Of a stretch of 51,368 bases of DNA, positions 29,518 to 48,779 are shown one piece after another. The DNA comes from Candidatus Woesebacteria bacterium (GTDB lineage Bacteria > Patescibacteriota > Microgenomatia > Woykebacterales > 2-01-FULL-43-14). The notes under the pieces were generated by a model, which ran no database searches, had not been told where the DNA came from, and saw only the letters and a list, made by a program, of their open reading frames with translations. The position numbers and the translations under genes are program-made. Each line of letters opens with the position of its first letter. The first letter of the stretch is position 1. The stretch lies in assembly GCA_020060105.1 (NCBI GenBank), contig JAGVAV010000025.1, positions 1-51,368 on the forward strand, given 5' to 3'.

Positions 29518-30651
29518 TTACCTAACTATATTTTTAAAAACCTGAAATGCCGGTTTTTCCTTGTGATTAGTTGATTTCCCTTCCAATAACCCAGTGTAAC
29601 TAAACTTATCGTCGGGTACGTCTGTATCATAAAACTGAAAATAAAAAACTTTTTGAACATATGGATATTTTGCTAACTCTTCGTAAGCTTTCCTTAATCT
29701 GTCTGACTGCTCATCTTTTGTCAGACAAAAAGGGTCATTTTCATCCAAACAGGTACTAAAACCTACTTCTGTGACCCAAATAGGTTTATCATCACCATTT
29801 TCCAGCATAATTTGGCGTAAGTTTTCAAGCCTGTCAAAATTGCCGTACAGATGGACGGAAAGTACGTCAAAATATCCTTTGGCTCCACTTTGGTACATCT
29901 GTTTCAGAAAATCTTCTGGTGAAATATTGGTCTCGGTATACTTTCTGCCGCACAGGTGAGTCGCGTCGATCTCTACACTGCCTGTAGGCTGATCTCCCAA
30001 CGCTCCTCCGATAACCAAAGCATCCGGATTTACCTTTTTAACTGCCTTATGAGCGGCTTTTAACAATTGTGAGTACTTCAGCGGATCGGGCACAGGTGGA
30101 TTAAAAGCATAAAGGTTAGGCTCATTCCAGATCTCCCAGCTGGTGATGTTTTTATATCGGCTGGCCATCTCTTCAGTATATTTCCCAAAGTTCTCCGGAT
30201 CCTTTGGTAAATACCACCAGTGGTTCGGCTCCCCACACTTCCAATCGTCCTTTGATTTTCCGTTCGCCCAAGGAGGTGAAGAATTCAAGATACCTAAAAC
30301 GTTAAAACCTGCCTTTTCGACCACCTCTTCTACATAAAAGTCCGGAAAAGAGTAACTCAGGGTTAAGCCACCGCCATCACTTTTGCCCGTATCAATATCA
30401 GCCCAACTAAAATCAGTCCTTATCCAGTTAACTCCAGCTTCCCTCGCTTTTTTTAAAACTTTTTGGAAGTCTTCGTCTCCTCTAAGTAAACGGGCATTTA
30501 TACCTTTATAGTTGCTTTGGACAGCCGGAATAGGCTCTTGCGTTTTCCCGAAAAAAAATGTCAGTAAAAAGAAGCTAACTACTATAACCCCGATAATAGT
30601 CAGACTAACTTTCATTTTTTTAATTTTGATCAAACCACTAAGTCTTTTCAC
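29518..30651 (-). CDS. Membrane-anchored glycoside hydrolase (GH39/PslG-like, clan A)
   Basis: About 377 aa with an N-terminal anchor (about 14-32) and a TIM-barrel hydrolase. SWEIWNEPN holds the likely acid/base Glu177, and IWVTEVGFST the nucleophile Glu295, the clan A arrangement. Overall pattern resembles GH39/PslG enzymes that cut exopolysaccharide. The open frame extends to TTG 30693, but the promoter TTGCTG-17-TATACT (30687-30659) lies inside it and its predicted start coincides with GTG 30651, so I choose that as a leaderless start; ATG 30615 is an alternative. It may trim the cell's own surface glycan. Confidence 0.82.
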   Translation of the reverse strand: MKRLSGLIKIKKMKVSLTIIGVIVVSFFLLTFFFGKTQEPIPAVQSNYKGINARLLRGDEDFQKVLKKAREAGVNWIRTDFSWADIDTGKSDGGGLTLSYSFPDFYVEEVVEKAGFNVLGILNSSPPWANGKSKDDWKCGEPNHWWYLPKDPENFGKYTEEMASRYKNITSWEIWNEPNLYAFNPPVPDPLKYSQLLKAAHKAVKKVNPDALVIGGALGDQPTGSVEIDATHLCGRKYTETNISPEDFLKQMYQSGAKGYFDVLSVHLYGNFDRLENLRQIMLENGDDKPIWVTEVGFSTCLDENDPFCLTKDEQSDRLRKAYEELAKYPYVQKVFYFQFYDTDVPDDKFSYTGLLEGKSTNHKEKPAFQVFKNIVR

Positions 30652-30658
30652 TGGTCTG

Positions 30659-30687
30659 AGTATACAGTTTTCAAGGGAATCCAGCAA
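30659..30687 (-). promoter_or_regulatory. Promoter of the glycosidase gene
   Basis: On the minus strand TTGCTG (30687-30682), 17 nt, TATACT (30664-30659). Confidence 0.65.
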
Positions 30688-30736
30688 GGCCAAGCAAAGA
30701 CCTGATTAGTCAGCTTTTTATTTCCCTTACCTTTTC

Positions 30737-35468: not shown

Positions 35469-36707
35469 ATGAAAAAAGTCTTTTTTACCAAGGTTCTTAG
35501 TCTCTTTAGTTTTCGAAATGTCACTTTCCTCGTGATCTTAATCCTTTTCTCCGTTTCCAGCTACTACCTTTGGAATAATAAAGTCCAACTTGAATCTCAG
35601 GTAAACTCTTTAAACTCCAGCTATCAGCAACTCCAGAAAAACTACCAACAATCCCTGGATCAAGACCAAATCTACCAACTGGAAAAAATCAAACTTGAGG
35701 AGTCCAAACGCCAAGTTGAAGAGGAGTATGAAAAATTAAAATCTGACGCCAGCAAAGAAAAACTGGCCAAAATCGAAGAGATCTTCCAGCTCTACCAAAG
35801 TGCTATTTCCAAGATTGACCGAAACAATAAAGTCAAGGTTGATAATACTGAGGTCACTGGGCAACTCAATGATTGGGGACAAAAGTTTCTCAAGCAGGAC
35901 TTTGGCTCCCTGAAAGAGACTATTACCCAGGCTAACACTAATCTAGACAAAAAGTATCAGGAGTACTTGGCTTCCCTCCCGCCTCCGGAACCGCCAAAAC
36001 CAGCCCCCGCTCCAGCCGCCGGCTACAGCTACCAATCTGTCTCGACAAGCCGAGGAAATTATAACGTTCATCTGATCAAGATGTCTCTTTCAGAGGTTAG
36101 AGTCAAAACCATCACCGCTAACGAAAGCGATTGCACGAATAACTGCCCGGCCAAACCTCTGGCTGATTACGTCAAGGAAAACGGGGCTTACGCCGGAATC
36201 AACGGGACATATTTTTGTCCGCCGGACTACTCCGCTTGCAGCGGAAAAACCAATTCCTATGATTTCACCATCTTTAATTCCAACTTGGGAAAGTGGATTA
36301 ACGCCCATAATCTAAACTGGAACAGCCCGGGGTTGGCGACCTTTAACGGTAGCGAAGCGCATTTTTACGCCAAAACAACCGATTACACCGGAAACACCGT
36401 CACCGCGGCAATTTCCAACTACTTTGGCCTCCTTTCGAACAATAATGTCGTGGTTAGCGAATCTGTTTTGACTTCCGCCCAAAAAGTCAAGGGGACCCGC
36501 GGGGCCCTCGGCACTGACGGAACTAATGTTTATCTTGCCACCATCTCCAATGCCACGGTCATCGATGCCGCTTACGTCATGCAGGCGCTGGGAGCAAAAG
36601 ACGCCCTAAACCTGGATGGGGGAGGCTCATCGGCGATGTATATTGGCGGTTCCTACAAAGTCGGTCCCGGCCGACTTCTTCCCAACGCCATTGTTTTAGT
36701 TAAGTAA
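35469..36707 (+). CDS. Membrane-anchored NAGPA-type phosphodiester glycosidase
   Basis: 412 aa. A membrane anchor (about 17-35) is followed by a long coiled coil (about 38-175, Gln/Glu/Lys rich), a Pro/Ala linker and a NAGPA domain (about 190-412) with GINGTYFCPPDY, TDGTNVYLATIS and the signature NLDGGGSSAMY. NAGPA/DUF2233 domains cleave sugar-phosphodiester bonds, for example in teichoic-acid-like or capsular polymers. No ribosome site; the gene begins 21 nt after tRNA-His and may share its transcript, released by tRNA 3' processing. A frameshifted paralogue follows. Confidence 0.88.
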   Translation: MKKVFFTKVLSLFSFRNVTFLVILILFSVSSYYLWNNKVQLESQVNSLNSSYQQLQKNYQQSLDQDQIYQLEKIKLEESKRQVEEEYEKLKSDASKEKLAKIEEIFQLYQSAISKIDRNNKVKVDNTEVTGQLNDWGQKFLKQDFGSLKETITQANTNLDKKYQEYLASLPPPEPPKPAPAPAAGYSYQSVSTSRGNYNVHLIKMSLSEVRVKTITANESDCTNNCPAKPLADYVKENGAYAGINGTYFCPPDYSACSGKTNSYDFTIFNSNLGKWINAHNLNWNSPGLATFNGSEAHFYAKTTDYTGNTVTAAISNYFGLLSNNNVVVSESVLTSAQKVKGTRGALGTDGTNVYLATISNATVIDAAYVMQALGAKDALNLDGGGSSAMYIGGSYKVGPGRLLPNAIVLVK

Positions 36708-36740: not shown

Positions 36741-36748
36741 TAGACTTG

Positions 36749-37986
36749 ATGTATTACACTACCTCGCCCAGATTTAACCTCGTCAGCGTTATCAAAACAT
36801 TTTTAATTGTCACGACTCTCGTGGGCATCCCTATTTTCATCACCCATCTTTACAACAAGAGCATCGAGCTGGAACACGCTACCAAAAATATTTCCAAAAG
36901 CTATGAGCAACTTGAATACGATTACATGGCTATCCTGGAAACAGAGCACCTAAAAAGTTTAGAAAACATCAAATTAGCCGAAACTAAACAAAGGTTAGAA
37001 GAAGATTACCAAAACTTAAAATCTCAGGTTAGTTCCGGCAATCAAGAGAAAATCGACTCCGTCCACAAACTCTACAAAGAAGTGCTGGAAAAATTAGAAA
37101 GAAACAATAAAGTCAAAATTGACACTAAAGCCGTGAGCGATCAAGTTACCGACTGGGGCGTCAAATTCTTAAACCAAGATTACGATAACCTTCAGCAATC
37201 ACTTGCCCTAGCCAAAGAAAATCTCGATAAAAAACACCAAGAATACTTAGACTCCCTGCCAAAACCCAAACCCAAGTCCGAGCCCATCCCTGCCCCAGGC
37301 TATAATTATCAAACCGTCAGTAACAGCCGGGGACACTTTGGCGTTCATCTAGTGAAGATGCCTTTAAGTGAGGTAGCCATTAGAACCACCGCCGCCAACG
37401 AAAACGACTGCGCAAACGATTGCCCAGCCAAACCTCTGGCTGATTACGTCAAGGAAAACGGGGCTTACGCCGGAATCAACGGGACATATTTTTGTCCGCC
37501 GGACTATTCTTCCTGCAACGGCAAAACTAATTCCTACGATTTTGCTTTTTTCAACTCCAATAAAGGAAATGGTTAAATACCCAAGCTCTGCCTTGGCAAA
37601 GCGTCGGAATGGCCACCTTTCACGGCCAAGACGTTCGCTTCTACGCCAAAGGATCCGACTACAAAGGGGATAAGGTCACCGCCGCTATCTCCAACTACAT
37701 GAGCCTACTAAGCAATGGCGAAGTTCTGATTGGGGAAGAAAGCCTAACTTCCGCCCAAAAAGTCAAAGCGGTCCGAGGGGCTATCGGTACAGACGGAACC
37801 CATATCTATTTAGCGATTATTTCCGGAGCCTCCGTCCTTGACACCGCTTACGTGATGCAAACCCTTGGGGCTAAAGAGGCCCTTAACCTTGACGGCGGTG
37901 GTTCGGCAGCTCTCTACGTCAACGGCTCATACCGGGTTGGCCCCGGCCGAGTGCTTCCTAACGCGATCGTTTTAGTCAAAATCTAG
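36749..37986 (+). pseudogene. NAGPA-type phosphodiester glycosidase, single-base frameshift
   Basis: Paralogue of 35469-36707 with the same order: anchor, coiled coil, Pro-rich linker, NAGPA domain. The first frame ends at 37576 after NSNKGNG. Shifting frame at about 37565-37570 restores GKWLNTQALPWQ in line with GKWINAHNLNWN of the intact copy and continues to 37986, through NLDGGGSAALY. One A missing from a GGAAATGG run explains it. This may be a recent inactivation, a strain variant or an assembly error. An 80-bp stretch (37427-37506) is identical to 36150-36229 of the paralogue. Confidence 0.85.
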
Positions 37987-38311: not shown

Positions 38312-40741
38312 ATGCCAAGATTGGTCTTAGTTGCTGTTATTGTTATTTCTTTGATTACTCTTGCTGCCGCAATCTACTTTGGGGCCTTTAATCCTTCCTA
38401 TCTTTCTCAAGCTTCCGCTCAAACTAACCCTCAAACTTACTATGTATCACCCACCGGATCCGATACCAACTCCGGTACCTCAGAAACCTCACCTCTTGCC
38501 ACCTTTAATAAAGTCTGGACAGTTATTAAGCCCGGGGACACTTTGATCTTGCTTGACGGGGTTTACTATCAGCAATTCAGGCCAACAGTAGCAGGAACTG
38601 CCCAAGCCCCGATTACCATTAAAGCTAAAAATGACGGTAAAGCCACTATTGACGCTGAGTTTAAATATAACGCTTTTGTTTTCCCAACTGATCACACCTT
38701 TCCCAGCCCTGATGCTTACTATGTTATTGAAGGGATAAATGCCCGAAATGGTATGTACGCCACCTTTGAGATTCAAAAAAGCCATGTTACCCTAAGACGA
38801 ATTCATGCATATAACACAGCGGAAGACTGGGATGTCGTTCAGGCCGGAGGAACCGGGTTTGAAGCTCAGCATCCTATCCATGTTAGTAGAGGCTCAAACA
38901 TCCTCATAGAAGATTGTATTACCTCAGGATCAGGGAGTAAGATGCTTAAGGTTATTCGAGCGCAAAATGTAACCGTCAGAAGATGCATTACGGACTGGCG
39001 CTGGATGGAAGCCCACACGGATCATAACCTTTGGCCCTGGAGCGGAGGATTAAATGTTTACCACACTTACCAGGATACCTTTGAAAACATTATCTCAGTC
39101 AGAAATATCGCTTCTCAGTATGGAATAAACTTTCATGGGGTGGAAAGAGATGATCACCCGGATCCAGTTGATGGAAATAAGTATCTTGGTTCTGTTATCA
39201 TTGGCACCGGTTATACTCCGGATGGGCAGTTATATGATTGGGGTCCTATCCGGCCTCAACCAAATACCGCCAATCAGTTGGATAACACTTTTGATTTTAC
39301 AGGTTGGGGAGGGATGCGTCCAGGATTTGCTATTGGTGACGGGATTAAAGACACTCTTTGGCAGGACATCTTAGTTTACGGTAATGCCGGGTTAGCTTTT
39401 GACCGATCCGACAGAACTACTATTTCTACTAATAACCGGATCGTTAACGCTACCTTTGTCAACAACGGTTTGGCGGCAAACACTTATAACGGCGGAGTAG
39501 GCAGTGAAGTGGATTTTCGGGATTGGGGAGCGGATATGAGCATTACTGGTTCCTTTATTGAAGGAGACTCCAATCACACCGGTCCGGGAGCCGATATCCG
39601 GTATAAATACGTTGACGGGGTCAAAACTAATGAAAGTTTATGGCCTTGGCCATTGGAGCAAAGAGTCAGAGATGAGCTGGGTTATTCCGTAACCAACATG
39701 GTAGCAGAGGTCACGGAGGATTTATATAACAAAGGCCACCTGTCGTATAAAGTTGATCGGGTGGCGGATATCCCAAGGCCGGTTTTGGGCACTGATAAAA
39801 CTTATTTGCCTTTTGTCAAAACCACCATTGGAAGCTCTTCTGTTCAGACTTTAACCGTCAGAAATTCCGGAGACGGGGATTTAATCGTCAGTAACATTAA
39901 AATTACCAATGATTTTAAACCTGAGGCTTTTTCTCTGGCCACCACCGGCACTTGTCCCACTGCTTATCCTTTCACCATTTCGGCCAACTCCTCATGCACT
40001 ATCGATGTTTTATTCTCTCCTTCAAGTTTGATTTTTTATCCCGGCAGGATTAAGATCTTTCCCGGAAACTTAGGAGCAGTAGGGCATCCTCATATTGTTT
40101 CTGTCTTAGGGGTAGGCCATCCCACAACTTCCACAGTTACCTTGCCGGGAAGGGTAGAGGCAGAATATTACACTAATGGTTATGACACTACTGCCAATGT
40201 TATCAGAACCAACTTACCCGGTTTTGATCAAGGGGTTGATGTCCGGGCCACCATAGATTCTGGTAATTACGGCCTTAAAGTAGGCATTACCAGCACCGGG
40301 GAATGGCTGGAATATCCGGTTTCAGTGTCCCAGTCCGGTCCCTACATAATAGTTGCCAGGACTTCTTCCACCGATACCACCCGCAGCAAACAGTTTAAAG
40401 TTTTACTTGACGGCCAGGTTATTGCCACCTTTAACCCTCCTTACACTGGAGGCTGGAATACCTTTACCGATACAACTTTAAATAATATCAGCCTTCCCAG
40501 CGGCAGTCACACCTTAAGGATCTCTTTTGACAGCGGCTACTTTGATCTTAATTATCTTGACTTTCTCTCGGAGACTCCTCCCTCGGCTGATTTAAATAAC
40601 GATAATTTAGTAAACAGCACTGACGCGGCGATTCTTTTTAACAATTGGTTTAATCCCGCGACTTCCTCGGCTGATATTTATTCAGATACTAAAGTTAATG
40701 GCCTAGATTTTAGTTACCTGAAAAGAGACTGGAAACCATGA
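38312..40741 (+). CDS. Secreted beta-helix protein with CBM6-like and dockerin modules
   Basis: 809 aa. Signal segment (about 2-36, ending SQASAQ), right-handed parallel beta-helix of the pectate-lyase/DUF1565 type (about 40-490, opening TYYVSPTGSDTNSGT), an immunoglobulin-like choice-of-anchor domain (about 500-600, TLTVRNSGDGDLIVSN), a CBM6-like module (about 605-750, VEAEYYTNGYD, GEWLEYPV) and a C-terminal dockerin-like pair of Ca-binding loops (ADLNNDNLVNSTDAAIL and ADIYSDTKVNGLDFSYLKR). It probably binds or cuts polysaccharide outside the cell. Stop and next ATG overlap as ATGA. Confidence 0.88.
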   Translation: MPRLVLVAVIVISLITLAAAIYFGAFNPSYLSQASAQTNPQTYYVSPTGSDTNSGTSETSPLATFNKVWTVIKPGDTLILLDGVYYQQFRPTVAGTAQAPITIKAKNDGKATIDAEFKYNAFVFPTDHTFPSPDAYYVIEGINARNGMYATFEIQKSHVTLRRIHAYNTAEDWDVVQAGGTGFEAQHPIHVSRGSNILIEDCITSGSGSKMLKVIRAQNVTVRRCITDWRWMEAHTDHNLWPWSGGLNVYHTYQDTFENIISVRNIASQYGINFHGVERDDHPDPVDGNKYLGSVIIGTGYTPDGQLYDWGPIRPQPNTANQLDNTFDFTGWGGMRPGFAIGDGIKDTLWQDILVYGNAGLAFDRSDRTTISTNNRIVNATFVNNGLAANTYNGGVGSEVDFRDWGADMSITGSFIEGDSNHTGPGADIRYKYVDGVKTNESLWPWPLEQRVRDELGYSVTNMVAEVTEDLYNKGHLSYKVDRVADIPRPVLGTDKTYLPFVKTTIGSSSVQTLTVRNSGDGDLIVSNIKITNDFKPEAFSLATTGTCPTAYPFTISANSSCTIDVLFSPSSLIFYPGRIKIFPGNLGAVGHPHIVSVLGVGHPTTSTVTLPGRVEAEYYTNGYDTTANVIRTNLPGFDQGVDVRATIDSGNYGLKVGITSTGEWLEYPVSVSQSGPYIIVARTSSTDTTRSKQFKVLLDGQVIATFNPPYTGGWNTFTDTTLNNISLPSGSHTLRISFDSGYFDLNYLDFLSETPPSADLNNDNLVNSTDAAILFNNWFNPATSSADIYSDTKVNGLDFSYLKRDWKP

Positions 40742-42303
40742 AAGTAAAAGAAAGAAAGTTAATCTTTCTAATTAAATCATTTAACCTAAAGAAAATCTTT
40801 GTGTTGATAGTGGTATTAACCATAACCTTAACGATAACTTACGTTTTAAGATCAAAAAGTAACACCTCTCTTGAAGTTTCCCCTCCCGTTTTAGCTCAGA
40901 CCTCTCCTAATGATTGGCCCCAAGTCCAAAAAGATCCTCAACACACTGGATTCTCTTCTGAAACTTTAGGGACTAATTTCCAAGTAGCCTGGACTTATCC
41001 TTTCCAACCAGACAGAGTTCATCCTCAAGTCCAAGCGATAATTTACAGAGGTAAAGTATTTATTGGAACTGAAGGAGCAAATGGACAAAAACCAAGACTA
41101 ATTGCCATCAGTGCCGGTTCAGGAACAGGAGCAGGACAAAAGGTTTGGGAATATGAAGCAGGAGGACCAATCTTAAATTCTGCGGCAGCAGATAACGGCA
41201 TGGTTTACTTTGCCTCCTTAGATGGGGCTGTTTATGCCATAGACTCTGATACAGGTACTCAGGTTTGGAAGAACCAACTCATGCAATTCTTGGGTTTTTC
41301 CTCAGCTCCGATTTTGGCGGAAAATAAGATATTTATTGGGGGGCAGGATGGTAGGTTTTATGCTTTGGATACTAACAATGGAAATACTCTCTGGTCTTAT
41401 GACACCGGCTCTCCGATTTTAATGACTGCTGCTTATAATCAAAATAAAGTTTATTTTGGAGCTCAGAATATGTATGTTTATGCCCTTGACACTGCAAGTG
41501 GATCACTTGTTTGGAAAAGCCAAAAGATATTAGGTGGTTCATTTAAGGAATATTGGCCAGTTATTCACCAAGGAAATGTTATTATTCGGCCGATGTCCAG
41601 AACCTGGATGCCGGGAGTTGAACCGGGCTCGCCCTTCCAATGGGGGTTAAACAGCTCAAACTGGGATTGGCTATCCCAGTGGGGATCAACAATTTCAGCC
41701 GGAAATGCAAGCCAAGTGCCAGATATAATGAGTGCCCAAGACACAGTAATAAGTAACTATCAAGCTAATCCGAATAACTACACTAAGAGTTTATACATCT
41801 TAGATGAGAGTACTGGAGGGGAAGCTATGGTTGTACCTCATTCTTCAGATCAAACGATGGATGGTCAAACTACTCCCCCTTGTGTAGATCGGGATGGAAA
41901 CCTGGTTATGCCCTTAATGTTTATTGCTAGCGGTTGGGGAAGATTAAGCTTAACTCAACAAAGATTTATTGACATTTTATATGATGGAACTGACTATCGA
42001 GGTCAGCCTGTTTCCAGTACTACAGTTTCTAATCAAGTGGCCGGATTTGGCAACGGAGATGAAAATATGCAGGTTAGTTGTACTGCAAATATGGTCCTCG
42101 GTTTCCATATTCAGGAAGAGAATGCAAATTACACAGGATACTTTAACTTGGACACCAGACGTTGGACTCGGGTAAGTGCTGGTCATCTAAACAAAGAGAT
42201 GAGTCACAATACTCAGGGTGGGGGAGGCAACCCGCCCTCTGTTTCAAACGGGATGGTATACCATGTTAGCTGGCACAATTTAATTGCTAGAAAGACAAAC
42301 TAA
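40738..42303 (+). CDS. Secreted PQQ-repeat beta-propeller protein
   Basis: 521 aa. Membrane anchor (about 16-36) and then PQQ-like/BamB-type propeller blades: VFIGTEGANGQKPRLIAI, NGMVYFASLDGAVYAIDSDT, KIFIGGQDGRFYALDTNNG, KVYFGAQNMYVYALD. Such propellers are usually scaffolds or binding modules. It is the only member of the operon without a dockerin. ATG 40738 overlaps the previous stop by 4 nt; the next gene begins 1 nt after its own stop. Confidence 0.85.
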   Translation: MKVKERKLIFLIKSFNLKKIFVLIVVLTITLTITYVLRSKSNTSLEVSPPVLAQTSPNDWPQVQKDPQHTGFSSETLGTNFQVAWTYPFQPDRVHPQVQAIIYRGKVFIGTEGANGQKPRLIAISAGSGTGAGQKVWEYEAGGPILNSAAADNGMVYFASLDGAVYAIDSDTGTQVWKNQLMQFLGFSSAPILAENKIFIGGQDGRFYALDTNNGNTLWSYDTGSPILMTAAYNQNKVYFGAQNMYVYALDTASGSLVWKSQKILGGSFKEYWPVIHQGNVIIRPMSRTWMPGVEPGSPFQWGLNSSNWDWLSQWGSTISAGNASQVPDIMSAQDTVISNYQANPNNYTKSLYILDESTGGEAMVVPHSSDQTMDGQTTPPCVDRDGNLVMPLMFIASGWGRLSLTQQRFIDILYDGTDYRGQPVSSTTVSNQVAGFGNGDENMQVSCTANMVLGFHIQEENANYTGYFNLDTRRWTRVSAGHLNKEMSHNTQGGGGNPPSVSNGMVYHVSWHNLIARKTN

Positions 42304-42304
42304 A

Positions 42305-45058
42305 ATGAAAGATGAAATTAAGATCCAAAAATCAAGAATTAGAAAAGGTTATTTTATTACACTATTTCTGATTCCTTTGTTCATTGTTTTCTACTCGCTA
42401 TTAACTTCTCCGGTTCAAGCTCAAGTAGTTGATACTACAATTTGGCAAGAAAAAGCTACTGGTTTAAGCACAACAAGTAACACCGACCAAAAAACAGCTG
42501 GATTAATGATCACCGTTAAAGCTTCCAGCGTCCCGACTCTTAATCTACAAGGAGGAGTGTTTGAGTCACTCAACAGGGTGGCTGGCCCGGTGGGAATAGA
42601 ATTAGGAGAGGTAAAAGTCTCTGGTACTACTCCCATCCTGATTTCACAATTAGTCGACTGGGCTCACAATGAAATGACTTTTTCAGAAAACATAAAGCTT
42701 TGGGTAAGTAGAATGTCTCCTGCAGTGCTTATTCAAAGCCAAAACTCAAGCTTAACAATTTTCTCTGGTAATGTGGGAGGAGTGGTGGTAAGTCCCAGTC
42801 AATGGCCGCCTTATCCTCTGGAAATTAACAACCGTACGCCATCTCCATCTTACCCGAAGTGGGTAGCTTATTCCTCAGGTGGTAATATTCAGGTGAGACA
42901 GCTATCTTCTGCAAATATTGTTTTACCTGCTCTTGATAACAATTGGCTATTATTTTGGTATGGCAGTAATTCACATTTTGCTGAAACCAAAGTGCCTATT
43001 TCTTTCTCTGATGGAGGATTATCCAGTGTTATTCCTCACAGTGATGCTTACTTGGCTGATGCCCCCATGTTGTTAAAATTTGAAAACAATCCTACTTCTA
43101 TTATCCAGTCTCCAGAAGGAGGAATAGATTTAACCTTTAGTACTAACAGTGGCTATACTTCCATACTTCCTTTATATGGCAGAGAACACTTAAGAGCCTC
43201 AGATACAGAAGGGTGGGGAAGTAGTGGGACACTACCACAAGAAGTTATTCAAAAGATTAACTTTTGGACAGACAGACTTTGTTCTTATCCTACCCAAGTT
43301 TCAGAAACTTACTCTTATGATCCAAATACTGATACTTCCACCATTACCGAAAATATTACCTTCCTGCCTGTGTGTTCCTCTGGTTCAACAGGCACACCTT
43401 TTTCTATACTGCCTCCGATGATGGCTTTAACTATGACAACTCCTGATCAGCAGGGTAATACCAATCCCTTAAATATCCAAATCAGTGGTGGAACACCAAT
43501 AAATGCCAATTATCCGACAGAATTTGGACCTCTCCTTGGTTTGGATAATGCTAATAGCTATTCTTGGTCAATTGCTGGTCTAAAGAAATACTCCGATAGT
43601 AAACGTACTTTAACTAACTTAGGCTCTATCCCCAGTGAAGTTCTTCAAAAGCTATCTTCGGAAGTAGATAAGATAGTGCAGGCAGGACACTACCAACCAT
43701 GGATGTTTGTTGACCGATTACCTCATTCGCCGATAATCGGTGACGTTTACTTTTCAAACCCCGGAGATATTCTTTACCATTTAACCGAGGTGGTAGAAGT
43801 TTTACAGGAACCACTAAAGACTAATTTGATTAATTATCTAAAAAGTGAGCGAAATGTTTACCCTCCTGAAACAGTGTTTAACCTTCCTGTTGACGGTACG
43901 TTGCGTGATCATTTTGCTTTTAGGGGCACAGATCCGTCTAATGTACCCAATACTAACTGGTATCAAAGGTGGCAAAACGATCGCAAGCAATTGTTTTATA
44001 AAAAAGTTCCTCTTTATAATTTGTATGCCTTATCGAGATACTACCAAGTTACGGGTGAGAACATTCCACCCTCGTTAATTGATCAGGCTTATATGATTTT
44101 AAACCAAAATATGGTTGAACAGGACTGGGCCTCATTCACGTGGTTTAAAGGCTTTGGAGAAAAAAGAGTTGCTGTTTGGAATGCTAATCTGCATCTATCA
44201 GGATTAATCGGTTATGTTCAGTTAGCTAAGGCTTTGGCTGATATTCCGGCTGAAAATCTAGGAAGAAGTTTACTGGCAAAGGCCTTAGTCTCACGTATAT
44301 CTATGGCTAAATATCCTCGGTATCTTTACTCTTCCGGATTAACAGTTTTACCTCCTGATCCCGCTTGGCAACCTAAGTACGCATCTAATAACTGGATCGC
44401 TTGGGGATATATTTATGATTATAACTGGACAAACTCCTATGATGATCATCTACAAGTCACTTTACAGGATCAGTTTGGCACCTACCTTTACGACAGCACC
44501 GGTTACATGGGACCAGGCGGATGGGTTTCATCTGATTGGGGTGCTGAAGGAAATAAACTAGCTGCTTATTCAGATCTAGTCCCAGAAGCTTTTCGAGTTC
44601 TAACTGATTATATTAAAACTGATTTTGAGATTTATCTTAAAAACTTTACTGTATATTCTCCTCAATGGTACGTAGCTTTTGCTGAAGCAATTATAGGTGC
44701 AGAACACAACCTAAGCTACCCCACTGATTCCTTCCAGATATTCATGGCTAAAGCTTTTCTGGAGAGAGATAATGCTCAGAATCTCCACAGTTATACATCT
44801 ATTCCTTGGTTAGAGAGTGGTGATTTCTTTTACATGCATAAATTGGCGGAAACGATTAAGGCTTATCAGGGTTGGAGTTGGGAAGATGAGTTAAAGTCTC
44901 CTTCAGATATTAGTGGTGATGGCTCAGTTAGTCTTGAAGACGCCCTCGAATTATTTAATAACTGGTTTAGTTTAAGAAATTCTAACGCCGATATTTTTAA
45001 AGATAATCGGGTTAACGGAATTGATTTTAGTTACCTCAAAAGAGACTGGAAACCATGA
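42305..45058 (+). CDS. Large secreted protein with C-terminal dockerin
   Basis: 917 aa from ATG 42305 (an upstream in-frame start would overlap the previous gene). Signal segment ends SPVQAQ (about residue 40). The body of about 820 aa has a beta-rich first half and an alpha-rich second half with many Trp and Tyr (YSPQWYVAFAEAIIG, DYNWTNSYDD), a layout seen in (alpha/alpha)-barrel glycosidases, but I cannot assign a family. The last 55 residues form a dockerin: SDISGDGSVSLEDALEL and ADIFKDNRVNGIDFSYLKR. Ends in the same ATGA overlap. Confidence 0.75.
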   Translation: MKDEIKIQKSRIRKGYFITLFLIPLFIVFYSLLTSPVQAQVVDTTIWQEKATGLSTTSNTDQKTAGLMITVKASSVPTLNLQGGVFESLNRVAGPVGIELGEVKVSGTTPILISQLVDWAHNEMTFSENIKLWVSRMSPAVLIQSQNSSLTIFSGNVGGVVVSPSQWPPYPLEINNRTPSPSYPKWVAYSSGGNIQVRQLSSANIVLPALDNNWLLFWYGSNSHFAETKVPISFSDGGLSSVIPHSDAYLADAPMLLKFENNPTSIIQSPEGGIDLTFSTNSGYTSILPLYGREHLRASDTEGWGSSGTLPQEVIQKINFWTDRLCSYPTQVSETYSYDPNTDTSTITENITFLPVCSSGSTGTPFSILPPMMALTMTTPDQQGNTNPLNIQISGGTPINANYPTEFGPLLGLDNANSYSWSIAGLKKYSDSKRTLTNLGSIPSEVLQKLSSEVDKIVQAGHYQPWMFVDRLPHSPIIGDVYFSNPGDILYHLTEVVEVLQEPLKTNLINYLKSERNVYPPETVFNLPVDGTLRDHFAFRGTDPSNVPNTNWYQRWQNDRKQLFYKKVPLYNLYALSRYYQVTGENIPPSLIDQAYMILNQNMVEQDWASFTWFKGFGEKRVAVWNANLHLSGLIGYVQLAKALADIPAENLGRSLLAKALVSRISMAKYPRYLYSSGLTVLPPDPAWQPKYASNNWIAWGYIYDYNWTNSYDDHLQVTLQDQFGTYLYDSTGYMGPGGWVSSDWGAEGNKLAAYSDLVPEAFRVLTDYIKTDFEIYLKNFTVYSPQWYVAFAEAIIGAEHNLSYPTDSFQIFMAKAFLERDNAQNLHSYTSIPWLESGDFFYMHKLAETIKAYQGWSWEDELKSPSDISGDGSVSLEDALELFNNWFSLRNSNADIFKDNRVNGIDFSYLKRDWKP

Positions 45059-48000
45059 AAGTGGAAAGTGAAAAGTTAAAATCCGATAAAATCGGATTAA
45101 AAGTTAAAAATGATCGGTTTAACTTACAGTTATTAAAAGTCATCGCTTTCTTTCTTTTTATTGTTAGTCTTTCTTACCTTGTCTTTAATTTCAATGATCA
45201 AAATCTTAATCTTTCTTCTGAAACTCAAGCTCAAACTCCTGTATCAGGCGCTCCTTATCCTCAATCTTCAGTAATTACAGGGATAACATGGGATAATTCT
45301 ACCAATGTTATTCGTTTAGCCTCCGGATCTGATAACTGGCCAATAACTTGGGCTGATGATGATAGTCTTTATACAGCTTATGGAGATGGTTGGGGGTTTG
45401 ATCCAAAATTGCCAACAAAATTAAGTTTAGGATTTGCCAAAGTATCAGGTTTCCCCCCGAGTACATCTGGAACAAATATCCGTTCAGTAGACGAGCAAAT
45501 TGGTGATGGAGCATCAGGGAAAAAGGCCAGCGGTATGTTAATGATTAACAGAATCTTATATATGTGGGTTAGAAACGCCGATAACAACGGCAATCAATGC
45601 CAGCTTGCCTGGTCAACAGATTATGGAATTAATTGGACTTGGAGTAATTGGAAGTTTGCTGAGTTTGGTTATTGTACTTTTATCAACTTTGGAAAAAACT
45701 ACTCAAATTCTCGTGATAACTACGTTTACTCCGTTACTCCAGATCAACCCAGTGCTTATCGAAACGCAAATAATTTAGCTGCTGATAGGTTTATTTTAAT
45801 GAGAGTGCCAGTAAATGAAATAACTAATAGGAATGCTTATGAATTCTTTACCGGAGTTGACAATAATGGTAACCCTCTGTGGAGTTTAGATATTTTAAAG
45901 AGAGCTAGTGTTTTTAACAATCCAGGTCGGGCTTATCGTTCTGGAATAAGCTACAACGCTGCTTTAGGAAGGTACTTATGGTGGCAGGTTATACCTGATT
46001 CTGGAAGTGATCTAAGAGTAAGCGGAGGTTTTGGTGTTTATGATGCTCCAGAGCCATGGGGGCCCTGGACTACAGTATACTATACAGAAAAATGGGATGT
46101 TGGCCCGGGAGAAACAGGAAGTTTTCCGACTAAATGGATGAGTTCTGATGGGAAAACATTGTATTTGGTATTTTCTGGTGATGATAATTTTTCAGTTAGA
46201 AAAGCAACTTTGTCCACTACAGGCAGCGCCGTTGCTTTATATAATTCCCACTATTTTACCTATAACAACACTCCTGTCATGCTTTTAGGGGACAGCGGTA
46301 CTCAATCAGTGATGCAAAATGGCAATATTGACTATCAAGACTGGATCAATGAGTTTGAAAGCAAAGGTATTAAGTCAGCTATGGTTTGGGCTTGGGTGGC
46401 TCCTAGGCAAAAAGTAGACGGCTCTGTTGTGGAATCAAGATATGGTTATGTCGTGCCAGAGGTAATGCCCTGGCAAAGAACAGGGACGTCAACAGCCACT
46501 GACGGTAAACCGACATACAGTCTTTTACAGCTTGATGATAACTACTTTAACCGTCTAATAGGCCTTTGTTCTTATATGCAATCTAAGGGTATGGTTTTGC
46601 TGATAACCGTTTGGGACGGGGGAGCCAAGTGGGCTAATGGTTATCATCCTTTCTGGGAGCCAAACGGCGGGCCAATTCCTTCGAGTATCTCCGGCACCGG
46701 GACAACTTTTCGAGATGCTTTTTACACGTTTGATGAATACACCAACAGCATCCTAAATGAAATTTACTCTGACACTTGGAGCTGGCAGAAAAAGAATAAA
46801 TATTTTCAGGAAAAGTTCGCCGACCGGTTGATTTCTGAAATTAACGGCAGTTGCGATAACGTCGTTTACGAAATGACCAATGAAGGAGCTCAAGTAGCAG
46901 GCTATGATGATTTCTGGCTTAGTTTCTTCAAGCAAAGAACCAACGCTCTCTTATCTGTTAATGTTGGCTATACAGTAACCAATAGCAATACCAACTCTAA
47001 TGTGGATTTCCGCAACTGGCACACGCCCACCTTTGATCCAGCCATAATTAATAGCAGCTGGAAGAATTACTTTAGTCAAACTCCTCTCAAACCGGCAATT
47101 AACTCTGAATCGGTTCCGGAATTTAGAGCAGGAACCAGCCCTTCTGCTGACGATACTAGAAAATTATTGTGGGCTACAGCTGTAGCCGGAGGCGGGGCTT
47201 TTATTCAAGACGATACGGTCTTTACTGACTACGACCCCAATGTTGCAGACTTTGATGGCCGGGAAATGAGAAACTATATGAGTTACATCAACAAATTTTT
47301 CAACGAGGGCACCGCTTCCGTCAAAGGCGCAAAACCGAAGTTTTGGGAGATGACGCCTAGTAACAGCCTAGTTACTTCCGGGACAGCTTACGCTCTGGCA
47401 AAAAGCGGAGCAGAATATATCAGCTACTTGCCTTCAGGAGGATCGACTACTTTAGATCTTTCAGGGGTAACGGGTAACTTTAACGTTGAATGGTATAATC
47501 CAAGAAGTGGTACTTATTCTTCTGCTGGAACTACCATGGGAGGGGCCTCCAAAACCTTTACCTCCCCTGACACTAGCGATTGGGTCTTATACCTAACCTC
47601 AACCCCCACCATAGCTCCGGTAACCATTTCCGGTGACCGGTTTTATTCAGGAGGCAGTCCGTACTTTCCGTCAACTAACTTTTTATCCAATGGCGCTACA
47701 TATAAAGCGACCCATGTCTACTTTTCCGATCAGCTTACAGATACTCAAAGGGCGGAAATGTTAACGGCTTTGAAAAATGAAGGGTATAATTCCATTTTTC
47801 TTTACACGATTAATCAAGGAGATTACGGCAGTAGAGTCGTTACCCCTTATGCCAGTGGAATAATCAGCGAGGGAGGAGCCTTTGATGAAACTAAAATCCA
47901 AAATTGGAAAACTCAGATGCAGGATATGATTTCTCAAGGATTAAGACCGATTTTGTGGCTTTTCCCTGACGATTCCTCAACTATCCACAACACTTCCACC

Positions 48001-48708
48001 ACCGAGTTGAAACGATATATTCAAAAAATGGTTTCTTCTTTTGATGACTTACCCGTTATGTGGGTTTTGGCTTTAGAGGTTGACGAATACTGGACCAAAA
48101 CTAAAAGCGATGATTTAGGCTCATATCTAAAATCCATTGCTCAAAATCCGGTCGGTCTGCATCAGCTTTCCGGCAAAACTGATTATATGACTTCAGACTG
48201 GGTGGACTTTGGCGCCTACCAGTACGGCTTTGGTAAATCCTGGGACACTATTTACAACGATACCTTAACCAAAAAGAGCAGTCTTGGGAACAAACCTTTC
48301 TTGGCCGCCGAGTATGATGTGGACGGGGGGACGCTGGCCCAGCAAAGAGGCTTGGCCGCCGCCTTTGCCAACGCCGCCGGAGCCGGAAACGGAGCCCCGC
48401 CTACTTTAGATGAGTTTATGGCTACTTTGCCAGATAACCTGACTCCCAGCCGAAATGGAAGCATCTTAACTCTTGAAGGAAACGGCGTCATCGCCACCGC
48501 GGATATGAATACTTTAGAATTTAGTAAAACTGATTTACTCCCAACATCTCCTTCCGATCTTGATGGGGACCGCTTAGTTAGCGCTACTGACGCGGCGATT
48601 CTTTTTAACAATTGGTTTACTCCTTCCACTCTTTCGGCTGACATTAATCAAGACAGTAAAGTTAACGGATCAGATTTTAGTTACCTTAAAAGAGATTGGA
48701 AACCATGA
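45055..48708 (+). CDS. Giant secreted multi-domain glycoside hydrolase with dockerin
   Basis: 1217 aa. Signal segment (about 28-60); a five-bladed propeller-like domain of the DUF4185 type (about 70-390, ITWADDDSLYTAYGDGWG); a TIM-barrel hydrolase of the DUF4038/GH140-like kind (about 400-770) with YEMTNEG (Glu610) and INSESVPEF (Glu685); a beta domain (about 770-855); a second TIM barrel (about 860-1150) with LALEVDEY (Glu1008) and FLAAEYD (Glu1086); and a dockerin (SDLDGDRLVSATDAAIL, ADINQDSKVNGSDFSYLKR). Two potential catalytic barrels in one chain is unusual for a minimal-genome organism. Family names are from motifs only. Confidence 0.8.
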   Translation: MKVESEKLKSDKIGLKVKNDRFNLQLLKVIAFFLFIVSLSYLVFNFNDQNLNLSSETQAQTPVSGAPYPQSSVITGITWDNSTNVIRLASGSDNWPITWADDDSLYTAYGDGWGFDPKLPTKLSLGFAKVSGFPPSTSGTNIRSVDEQIGDGASGKKASGMLMINRILYMWVRNADNNGNQCQLAWSTDYGINWTWSNWKFAEFGYCTFINFGKNYSNSRDNYVYSVTPDQPSAYRNANNLAADRFILMRVPVNEITNRNAYEFFTGVDNNGNPLWSLDILKRASVFNNPGRAYRSGISYNAALGRYLWWQVIPDSGSDLRVSGGFGVYDAPEPWGPWTTVYYTEKWDVGPGETGSFPTKWMSSDGKTLYLVFSGDDNFSVRKATLSTTGSAVALYNSHYFTYNNTPVMLLGDSGTQSVMQNGNIDYQDWINEFESKGIKSAMVWAWVAPRQKVDGSVVESRYGYVVPEVMPWQRTGTSTATDGKPTYSLLQLDDNYFNRLIGLCSYMQSKGMVLLITVWDGGAKWANGYHPFWEPNGGPIPSSISGTGTTFRDAFYTFDEYTNSILNEIYSDTWSWQKKNKYFQEKFADRLISEINGSCDNVVYEMTNEGAQVAGYDDFWLSFFKQRTNALLSVNVGYTVTNSNTNSNVDFRNWHTPTFDPAIINSSWKNYFSQTPLKPAINSESVPEFRAGTSPSADDTRKLLWATAVAGGGAFIQDDTVFTDYDPNVADFDGREMRNYMSYINKFFNEGTASVKGAKPKFWEMTPSNSLVTSGTAYALAKSGAEYISYLPSGGSTTLDLSGVTGNFNVEWYNPRSGTYSSAGTTMGGASKTFTSPDTSDWVLYLTSTPTIAPVTISGDRFYSGGSPYFPSTNFLSNGATYKATHVYFSDQLTDTQRAEMLTALKNEGYNSIFLYTINQGDYGSRVVTPYASGIISEGGAFDETKIQNWKTQMQDMISQGLRPILWLFPDDSSTIHNTSTTELKRYIQKMVSSFDDLPVMWVLALEVDEYWTKTKSDDLGSYLKSIAQNPVGLHQLSGKTDYMTSDWVDFGAYQYGFGKSWDTIYNDTLTKKSSLGNKPFLAAEYDVDGGTLAQQRGLAAAFANAAGAGNGAPPTLDEFMATLPDNLTPSRNGSILTLEGNGVIATADMNTLEFSKTDLLPTSPSDLDGDRLVSATDAAILFNNWFTPSTLSADINQDSKVNGSDFSYLKRDWKP

Positions 48709-48779
48709 GAAAATTTAGAATGCCTTCAGATACTGATTGGCTAGACCCCGATTTGAAGTTATTTAACGCCAGAGGTTAG
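48705..48779 (+). CDS. Possible 24-aa peptide coupled to the dockerin operon
   Basis: ATG overlaps the stop of the giant hydrolase in the same ATGA arrangement used at the other operon junctions. The peptide reads MRKFRMPSDTDWLD and then ten more residues, ending FNARG, acidic after a basic start. It may be a real leader or linker peptide or simply the cut-off start of a lost fifth gene. No family. Confidence 0.35.
   Translation: MRKFRMPSDTDWLDPDLKLFNARG

Follow-up and report, generated by a model that had tools for sequence, protein, structure and literature searches.

Dockerin-tailed secreted proteins in an operon of Candidatus Woesebacteria and a predicted relay for their docking at the cell surface

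A stretch of 51,368 nucleotides (nt) from a draft genome of Candidatus Woesebacteria (assembly GCA_020060105.1, contig JAGVAV010000025.1; the whole stretch is called the window below) carries an operon of four genes, three of which code for proteins that end in a dockerin (Doc). We consider it fairly probable that these proteins are held at the cell surface by a docking relay with one enzyme per socket. The operon would supply secreted carbohydrate-active proteins, three of the four bearing a C-terminal dockerin of the RDW class as a plug, which its two F-hands would keep calcium-loaded. Through its invariant second repeat this dockerin would bind, most likely, the divergent cohesin (Coh) of an adaptor of 848 amino acids (aa; Coh-TIG/fn3-Doc, contig C32), and the distinct, symmetrical dockerin of the adaptor (NIFDLS class) would plug into the cohesin of a 402-aa anchor with a transmembrane (TM) segment (Coh-fn3-TM). 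The relay would display a single enzyme per socket, and the displayed enzymes presumably bind and process extracellular or neighbour-cell polysaccharide. The genome (1.09 Mb in 40 contigs, 97.9 % complete) is patescibacterial, probably of the class Microgenomatia; an earlier note, made from the letters of the window, had already supposed a candidate phylum.

Dockerin tails of the operon proteins

The four abutting genes are all on the plus strand and span positions 38312-48708 according to the open reading frame calls, ending short of the 48779 given in the earlier note. With lengths of 809, 521, 924 and 1217 aa, the proteins are large, not giant as they had been called. All are predicted to be secreted and have an N-terminal signal-type segment only, with no membrane anchor of their own. 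The tight spacing described earlier (overlaps of 4 nt or separation by 1 nt) was found again: the gene 1/gene 2 and gene 3/gene 4 junctions are 4-nt ATGA overlaps, and, with the ATG at 42305 taken as the start of gene 3, a gap of 1 nt separates it from gene 2. In scans for promoters and terminators, no signal rose above the shuffled background.

PF00404 (Dockerin_1) was found at the extreme C-termini of gene 1 (30.4 bits; residues 759-809, positions 40586-40738, +, with two F-hand loops), gene 3 (23.3 bits; residues 874-924, positions 44903-45055, +) and gene 4 (30.3 bits; residues 1167-1217, positions 48553-48705, +), the curated Pfam cut-off being 22.9 bits. No dockerin was found in gene 2 by Pfam. 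The modules of about 50 residues share 58-73 % identity with the gene 1 copy, and all three proteins end in the same ten residues (FSYLKRDWKP), as the earlier note had seen. Matching 135-nt stretches of dockerin DNA are 66-82 % identical among the three genes. Further tails of this type, for which a genome search had been suggested, were also present: with the 24-residue tail as query, 19 genome sites were obtained, the best 12 at E-values of 3.3e-9 or lower. The likeness of the tails among genes exceeds chance by far. A profile of the genome's dockerin copies matched Clostridium thermocellum dockerin structures (CelS 2mte, 1daq) among the PDB profiles. Judged by the Pfam scores and by the PDB profile matches (CelS and others), the tails of genes 1, 3 and 4 are genuine type I dockerins, which agrees with the earlier identification.

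In the whole genome, PF00404 matched 27 sites, the highest number among the 138 genomes compared. A total of 23 dockerin genes were counted, 16 of them in the RDW class to which the window's copies belong; the classes seen were RDW (cargo), NIFDLS (Coh-Doc adaptors) and a C4 class. Six RDW-class genes lie at or next to contig ends, so the true number of dockerin genes may exceed this count; the assembly seems to break within a repeated dockerin family, and copies were probably undercounted. Dockerin-tailed or beta-helix paralogs were seen at the ends of contigs C14, C15, C20, C35, C40 and C37.

Each dockerin consists of two F-hand repeats of about 22 residues, for which the expected calcium ligands are Asp/Asn at positions 1, 3, 5, 9 and 12. 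D1 and D12 are invariant in both repeats, D/N5 is kept in both repeats of nearly all copies, and Tyr is frequent at position 3 of the second repeat. When 15 RDW dockerins were compared, repeat 2 was conserved far more than repeat 1, with a mean entropy at positions 10-20 of 0.36 versus 1.11 bits and an entropy of the recognition pair (positions 10-11) of 0.64 versus 2.53 bits. This asymmetry suggests that the RDW dockerin would bind by a single face, that of repeat 2. The adaptor (NIFDLS) dockerins are symmetrical, with halves identical at 13/22 and 20/22 positions, and would fit binding either way round.

Cohesins and the wiring of the relay

The earlier note had seen no cohesin. This holds for the window and was refuted for the genome, in which five were found. 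PF00963, the search that had been proposed, gave two cohesin proteins above the cut-off (848 aa and 564 aa), and a profile built from the genome's own cohesins gave exactly five, each single in its protein, thus recovering the three of five that Pfam at its cut-off misses. Two of the five proteins are membrane-anchored and three also carry a dockerin. On contig C32, the 848-aa adaptor or scaffold (Coh, TIG and fn3 domains, NIFDLS Doc) is followed directly by the 402-aa anchor (Coh-fn3 and a C-terminal TM segment), then by a 324-aa Coh-Pro-rich-Doc protein and a 574-aa beta-helix protein with an RDWQL dockerin. A 366-aa Coh-Doc protein is encoded on contig C28. The 564-aa protein (contig C4), which has an immunoglobulin-like (Ig) domain (Coh-Ig-TM) and a cytoplasmic tail, lies beside a 295-aa dockerin protein. 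A Coh-Ig-TM gene with a neighbouring dockerin gene recurs in genome G006 (295/273 aa dockerin proteins; L031:4121-6773, L109:14145-16649), and the C4 dockerin and the Coh-Ig-TM protein look like a dedicated orthogonal pair.

No cohesin was called by Pfam in the 402-aa anchor, and its fold was assessed on the cohesin module of its ortholog in the sister genome G002. The module was modelled with a predicted local distance difference test score (pLDDT) of 83 and a predicted template modelling score (pTM) of 0.80, and all 50 listed PDB matches in Foldseek were cohesins or cohesin complexes (best E-value 3e-9, TM-score 0.75). As modelled, the anchor module has a cohesin fold. In the cohesin tree, the 848, 618 and 636 cohesins form a separate clade (support 100/99), and the 402, 324 and 366 cohesins fall in one clade. 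The own-cohesin profile also matched 2xdh from Archaeoglobus fulgidus.

The strongest evidence that the window operon is part of a cohesin system is the gene linkage in G002, which belongs to a sister genus in the same family. There, a single operon opens with a 618-aa Coh-TIG-fn3-Doc protein and a 392-aa Coh-fn3-TM protein, the latter orthologous to the 402-aa anchor (58 %), and continues with genes for 341, 1003, 521, 925, 1049, 1095, 1031 and 1331 aa. Seven of these eight downstream proteins have an RDW-like dockerin at their end, the exception being that of 521 aa. Window genes 2 and 3 have their orthologs in the 521- and 925-aa genes (54 % and 51 % identity), and the gene 2 ortholog likewise lacks a dockerin and likewise stands directly before the gene 3 ortholog. 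A cohesin partner, which the earlier note had looked to related genomes for, thus heads an operon holding both orthologs.

Among 374 genomes of the class, RDW-class dockerins were found in two, the window genome (G000) and G002. The 848-type cohesin scored 248-277 bits in these two genomes and at most 61 bits in the others, and the third member of the family (G001) showed neither RDW dockerin nor 848-type cohesin. The Coh-TM anchor adjoins NIFDLS-type dockerins across the order, including f2 genomes without RDW dockerins. For this reason the NIFDLS dockerin was assigned to the anchor, which leaves the 848 cohesin for the RDW class; because the 848-type cohesin is confined to exactly the two RDW genomes, RDW to 848 and NIFDLS to 402 appears to be the most economical wiring.

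The enzyme dockerins might instead plug directly into the membrane-anchored cohesins (402/564 aa) or into the 324/366 Coh-Doc proteins, bypassing the 848 adaptor. The anchor gene does share the G002 operon with enzymes, the 402, 324 and 366 cohesins could have common ligands as members of one clade, and sequence alone cannot reveal binding specificity. This wiring is nevertheless unlikely in our judgement, since f2 genomes with NIFDLS but without RDW dockerins still retain the Coh-TM anchor, and since the 848-type cohesin occurs in exactly the genomes that have the RDW class.

Cargo proteins and their origin

Gene 1 (809 aa; 38312-40741, +) codes for a signal peptide, a right-handed beta-helix with a chondroitinase B / pectate-lyase-like N-terminus, an Ig-like domain and a carbohydrate-binding module (CBM) of the CBM6/CBM35 type before the dockerin. 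Its Pfam matches were CBM_6 (1.4e-17), Chondroitinas_B (7.7e-5) and Cep192_D4 (1.2e-8); choice_anch_D was above the NCBIfam cut-off, and CBM6 and rhamnogalacturonan-lyase matches were found among PDB profiles. The CBM6 module (residues 640-751; 40229-40564, +) scored 64.6 bits with PF03422 and matched PDB 1uxz at an E-value of 6e-11. Gene 2 (521 aa; 40738-42303, +) is a PQQ/BamB-like beta-propeller (PQQ_2, 2e-21). Gene 4 (1217 aa; 45055-48708, +) matched Collagen_bind_2 (2.1e-11) and Apiosidase, which resembles glycoside hydrolase (GH) family GH140 (2.2e-9), and its N-terminal region is common to a paralogous protein on contig C9 of the same genome.

Gene 3 (42284/42305-45058, +; 924 aa from TTG 42284 or 917 aa from ATG 42305) has a signal peptide and, in its model (pTM 0.80, pLDDT 75), a beta-sandwich plus an alpha-helical domain. 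Pfam and NCBIfam matched nothing in it outside the dockerin, and the PDB profile search did not yield GH81, so an assignment to GH81 by sequence failed. Only the fold points to this family: GH81 endo-beta-1,3-glucanases were the sole Foldseek matches at E < 0.001 (E-value 6e-11, probability 1.00, TM-score 0.35-0.55), and the protein is predicted to be GH81-like in fold.

Other RDW carriers in the domain scan were more beta-helix proteins, one subtilase and one weak GDSL-esterase-like match. No cellulase or hemicellulase (GH48, GH9 etc.) was found among the dockerin proteins scanned, no genome-wide search having been made. The cargo would be carbohydrate-active by resemblance only; polysaccharide degradation is plausible from the CBM6, chondroitinase B/pectate-lyase-like beta-helix, apiosidase-like and GH81-like domains and folds.

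Outside Patescibacteria, the closest full-length relatives of gene 3 were those of Anaerolineaceae (39-44 %). In these genomes the gene 3 relative directly follows a homolog of gene 2 (42-48 %). The patescibacterial pair nests with the Anaerolineaceae relatives (tree support 100/99). When dockerin loops were scored by a strict pattern, they were found in 0/33 relatives from Chloroflexota and 0/8 from Planctomycetota, and 14/18 patescibacterial relatives had at least one; the scan was seeded with one catalytic-region and one dockerin pattern, so that the patescibacterial matches are partly enriched for dockerins. Six loci (L125, L137, L140, L147, L157 and L169) are without the scan's dockerin pattern in the examined tails and were presumably found via the catalytic pattern. 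The dockerin classes on gene 3 relatives differ between patescibacterial lineages. No cohesin was found in the three nearest Anaerolineae genomes, and cohesins are present in 7/8 genomes with dockerin-tailed relatives (including the bin DBS2-5.bin62, placed in the same class). The simplest reading would be that at least the gene 2-gene 3 cargo was laterally shared with Anaerolineae (Chloroflexota), the enzyme having moved and the dockerin having been joined to it in Patescibacteria, with the direction not proven. With dockerins only on its patescibacterial members and not on those of Chloroflexota or Planctomycetota, the gene 3 family amounts to a natural experiment in the adoption of foreign secreted proteins by a minimal genome.

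Runs of consecutive large secreted proteins with near-identical, lineage-specific dockerins were also seen in other Patescibacteria (L137, L140, L157, L169, L196), so the window's pattern is a recurrent one. Tentatively, Patescibacteria may have a general plug-in surface system, in which laterally acquired secreted enzymes, often common to Chloroflexota, are given the dockerin of a lineage-specific orthogonal class and are received by single-cohesin membrane sockets. If this is true, a cell with a genome of about 1 Mb carries on its surface borrowed enzymes that can be exchanged.

The complex may serve adhesion to, or remodelling of, a surface polymer of the host or of the cell itself and not nutrition, a purpose with which the docking mechanism is compatible. 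An epibiotic, genetically tractable patescibacterium depends on an essential protein with a dockerin domain, for which host-glycan targeting was proposed in a paper that makes no mention of cohesin (PMC10633639); the Anaerolineae homologs of genes 2 and 3 also lie among surface-polymer-type genes. We regard this purpose as rather improbable, as the CBM6, beta-helix lyase-like, apiosidase-like and GH81-like domains of the cargo are typical of degradation and the bacterium has no known host.

Some observations weigh against the relay or against a degradative role for its cargo. The co-occurrence of 848-type cohesin and RDW dockerins is based on two related genomes of one family, where common ancestry alone could explain it, and scaffolds with only one cohesin each restrict how far several enzymes could act together. 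An Amesbacteria genome (L169, completeness not known) has dockerin-tailed relatives and shows no cohesin. The Anaerolineae counterparts of genes 2 and 3 belong to a conserved cluster (L118, L119, L120; read by eye) whose other members resemble genes for asparagine synthase, AMP ligase, acyltransferase and glycosyltransferase. This cluster suggests a role with the bacterium's own surface polymer, which the cargo might build or trim rather than digest as food.

Elsewhere in the window, a NAGPA gene (phosphodiester glycosidase, PF09992) is split across two frames (36746-37576 and 37609-37986, +) and is directly preceded by an intact tandem paralog (35469-36707). The split gene is either an assembly-error frameshift or a decaying duplicate. 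A GH39/glycosyl-hydrolase-core-like protein without a dockerin was seen at 29518-30693 (-).

Comparison with known systems

A true multi-enzyme cellulosome for plant polymers, with a multi-cohesin scaffoldin absent from the draft assembly, is quite improbable. Two cohesins do occur within one protein in some relatives, RDW genes lie repeatedly at contig ends as if repeats had assembled poorly, and a cohesin/dockerin inventory of other Microgenomates was termed a cellulosome in PMC9123182, citing Geesink 2020. No multi-cohesin scaffoldin was found in the window genome, where the five cohesins stand one to a protein at the stated completeness, although in a draft a scaffold may have been missed. 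The assembled G002 operon also shows single-cohesin scaffold proteins; the 848- and 618-aa scaffolds have TIG and fn3 domains, with no CBM by Pfam, and no cellulase family was found in the window operon by Pfam. As neither a multi-cohesin scaffoldin nor a scaffold CBM was found, the system was not filed as a cellulosome.

The earlier note had left a choice between a polysaccharide-degrading or surface complex, which stays plausible from folds and domains, and a dockerin fold turned into a sorting tag. That the tail serves only for sorting or stability and no longer uses cohesin, as the near-identical ends of many otherwise unrelated secreted proteins could suggest, was rejected as highly improbable: cohesins occur in the same genome (PF00963 and own profile) and head the sister operon, F-hand ligands are kept in both repeats, the proteins stop within the dockerin (...DFSYLKRDWKP-stop) with no LPXTG/PEP-CTERM-type sorting signal, transmembrane segment or sortase-type motif found in its sequence, and cohesins are present in nearly all genomes with dockerin-tailed copies, the copies of cohesin-free Anaerolineae being tail-less.

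The surface functions of Patescibacteria are largely obscure, and the docking relay gives a concrete diagram of plug, socket and anchor that is testable with a few small recombinant domains. New orthogonal cohesin-dockerin pairs would also be useful as assembly parts.

In the clostridial cellulosome (C. thermocellum CipA/SdbA), the enzyme dockerin binds a scaffold cohesin and the scaffold dockerin, of another class, binds a surface-anchored cohesin; the predicted relay would resemble this by architecture, and the PF00404 and PF00963 folds are genuine here. It differs in its single-cohesin scaffolds, its TM anchor, a scaffold without CBM and non-cellulase cargo, and in having asymmetric enzyme dockerins and a symmetric scaffold dockerin (up to 20/22). 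Single cohesins outside cellulosomes are known from A. fulgidus (2xdh) and from glycoside hydrolases of Clostridium perfringens (2vo8, 2w1n); the present system differs from these in that numerous cargo proteins bear dockerins of a single class and that a relative encodes the adaptor and the membrane anchor in the same operon. The complex of Ca. Stygibacter (Cloacimonadota, PMC8542988) likewise joins dockerin enzymes to a cohesin scaffold in an uncultured phylum, but with a scaffold of 3,755 aa that carries tandem cohesins and CBMs.

Closest are the cohesins and dockerins already reported in small genomes of Microgenomates, namely in Shapirobacterales (PMC9123182) and in Roizmanbacterium (Geesink et al. 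2020, as cited there). So far as the accessible text describes them, those reports are domain inventories or expression data, whereas operon linkage, the anatomy of anchor and adaptor, dockerin classes and a probable lateral origin of the cargo are added here. The system of the window genome is best seen as a variant of these Microgenomates cohesin/dockerin systems with an unusually readable anatomy.

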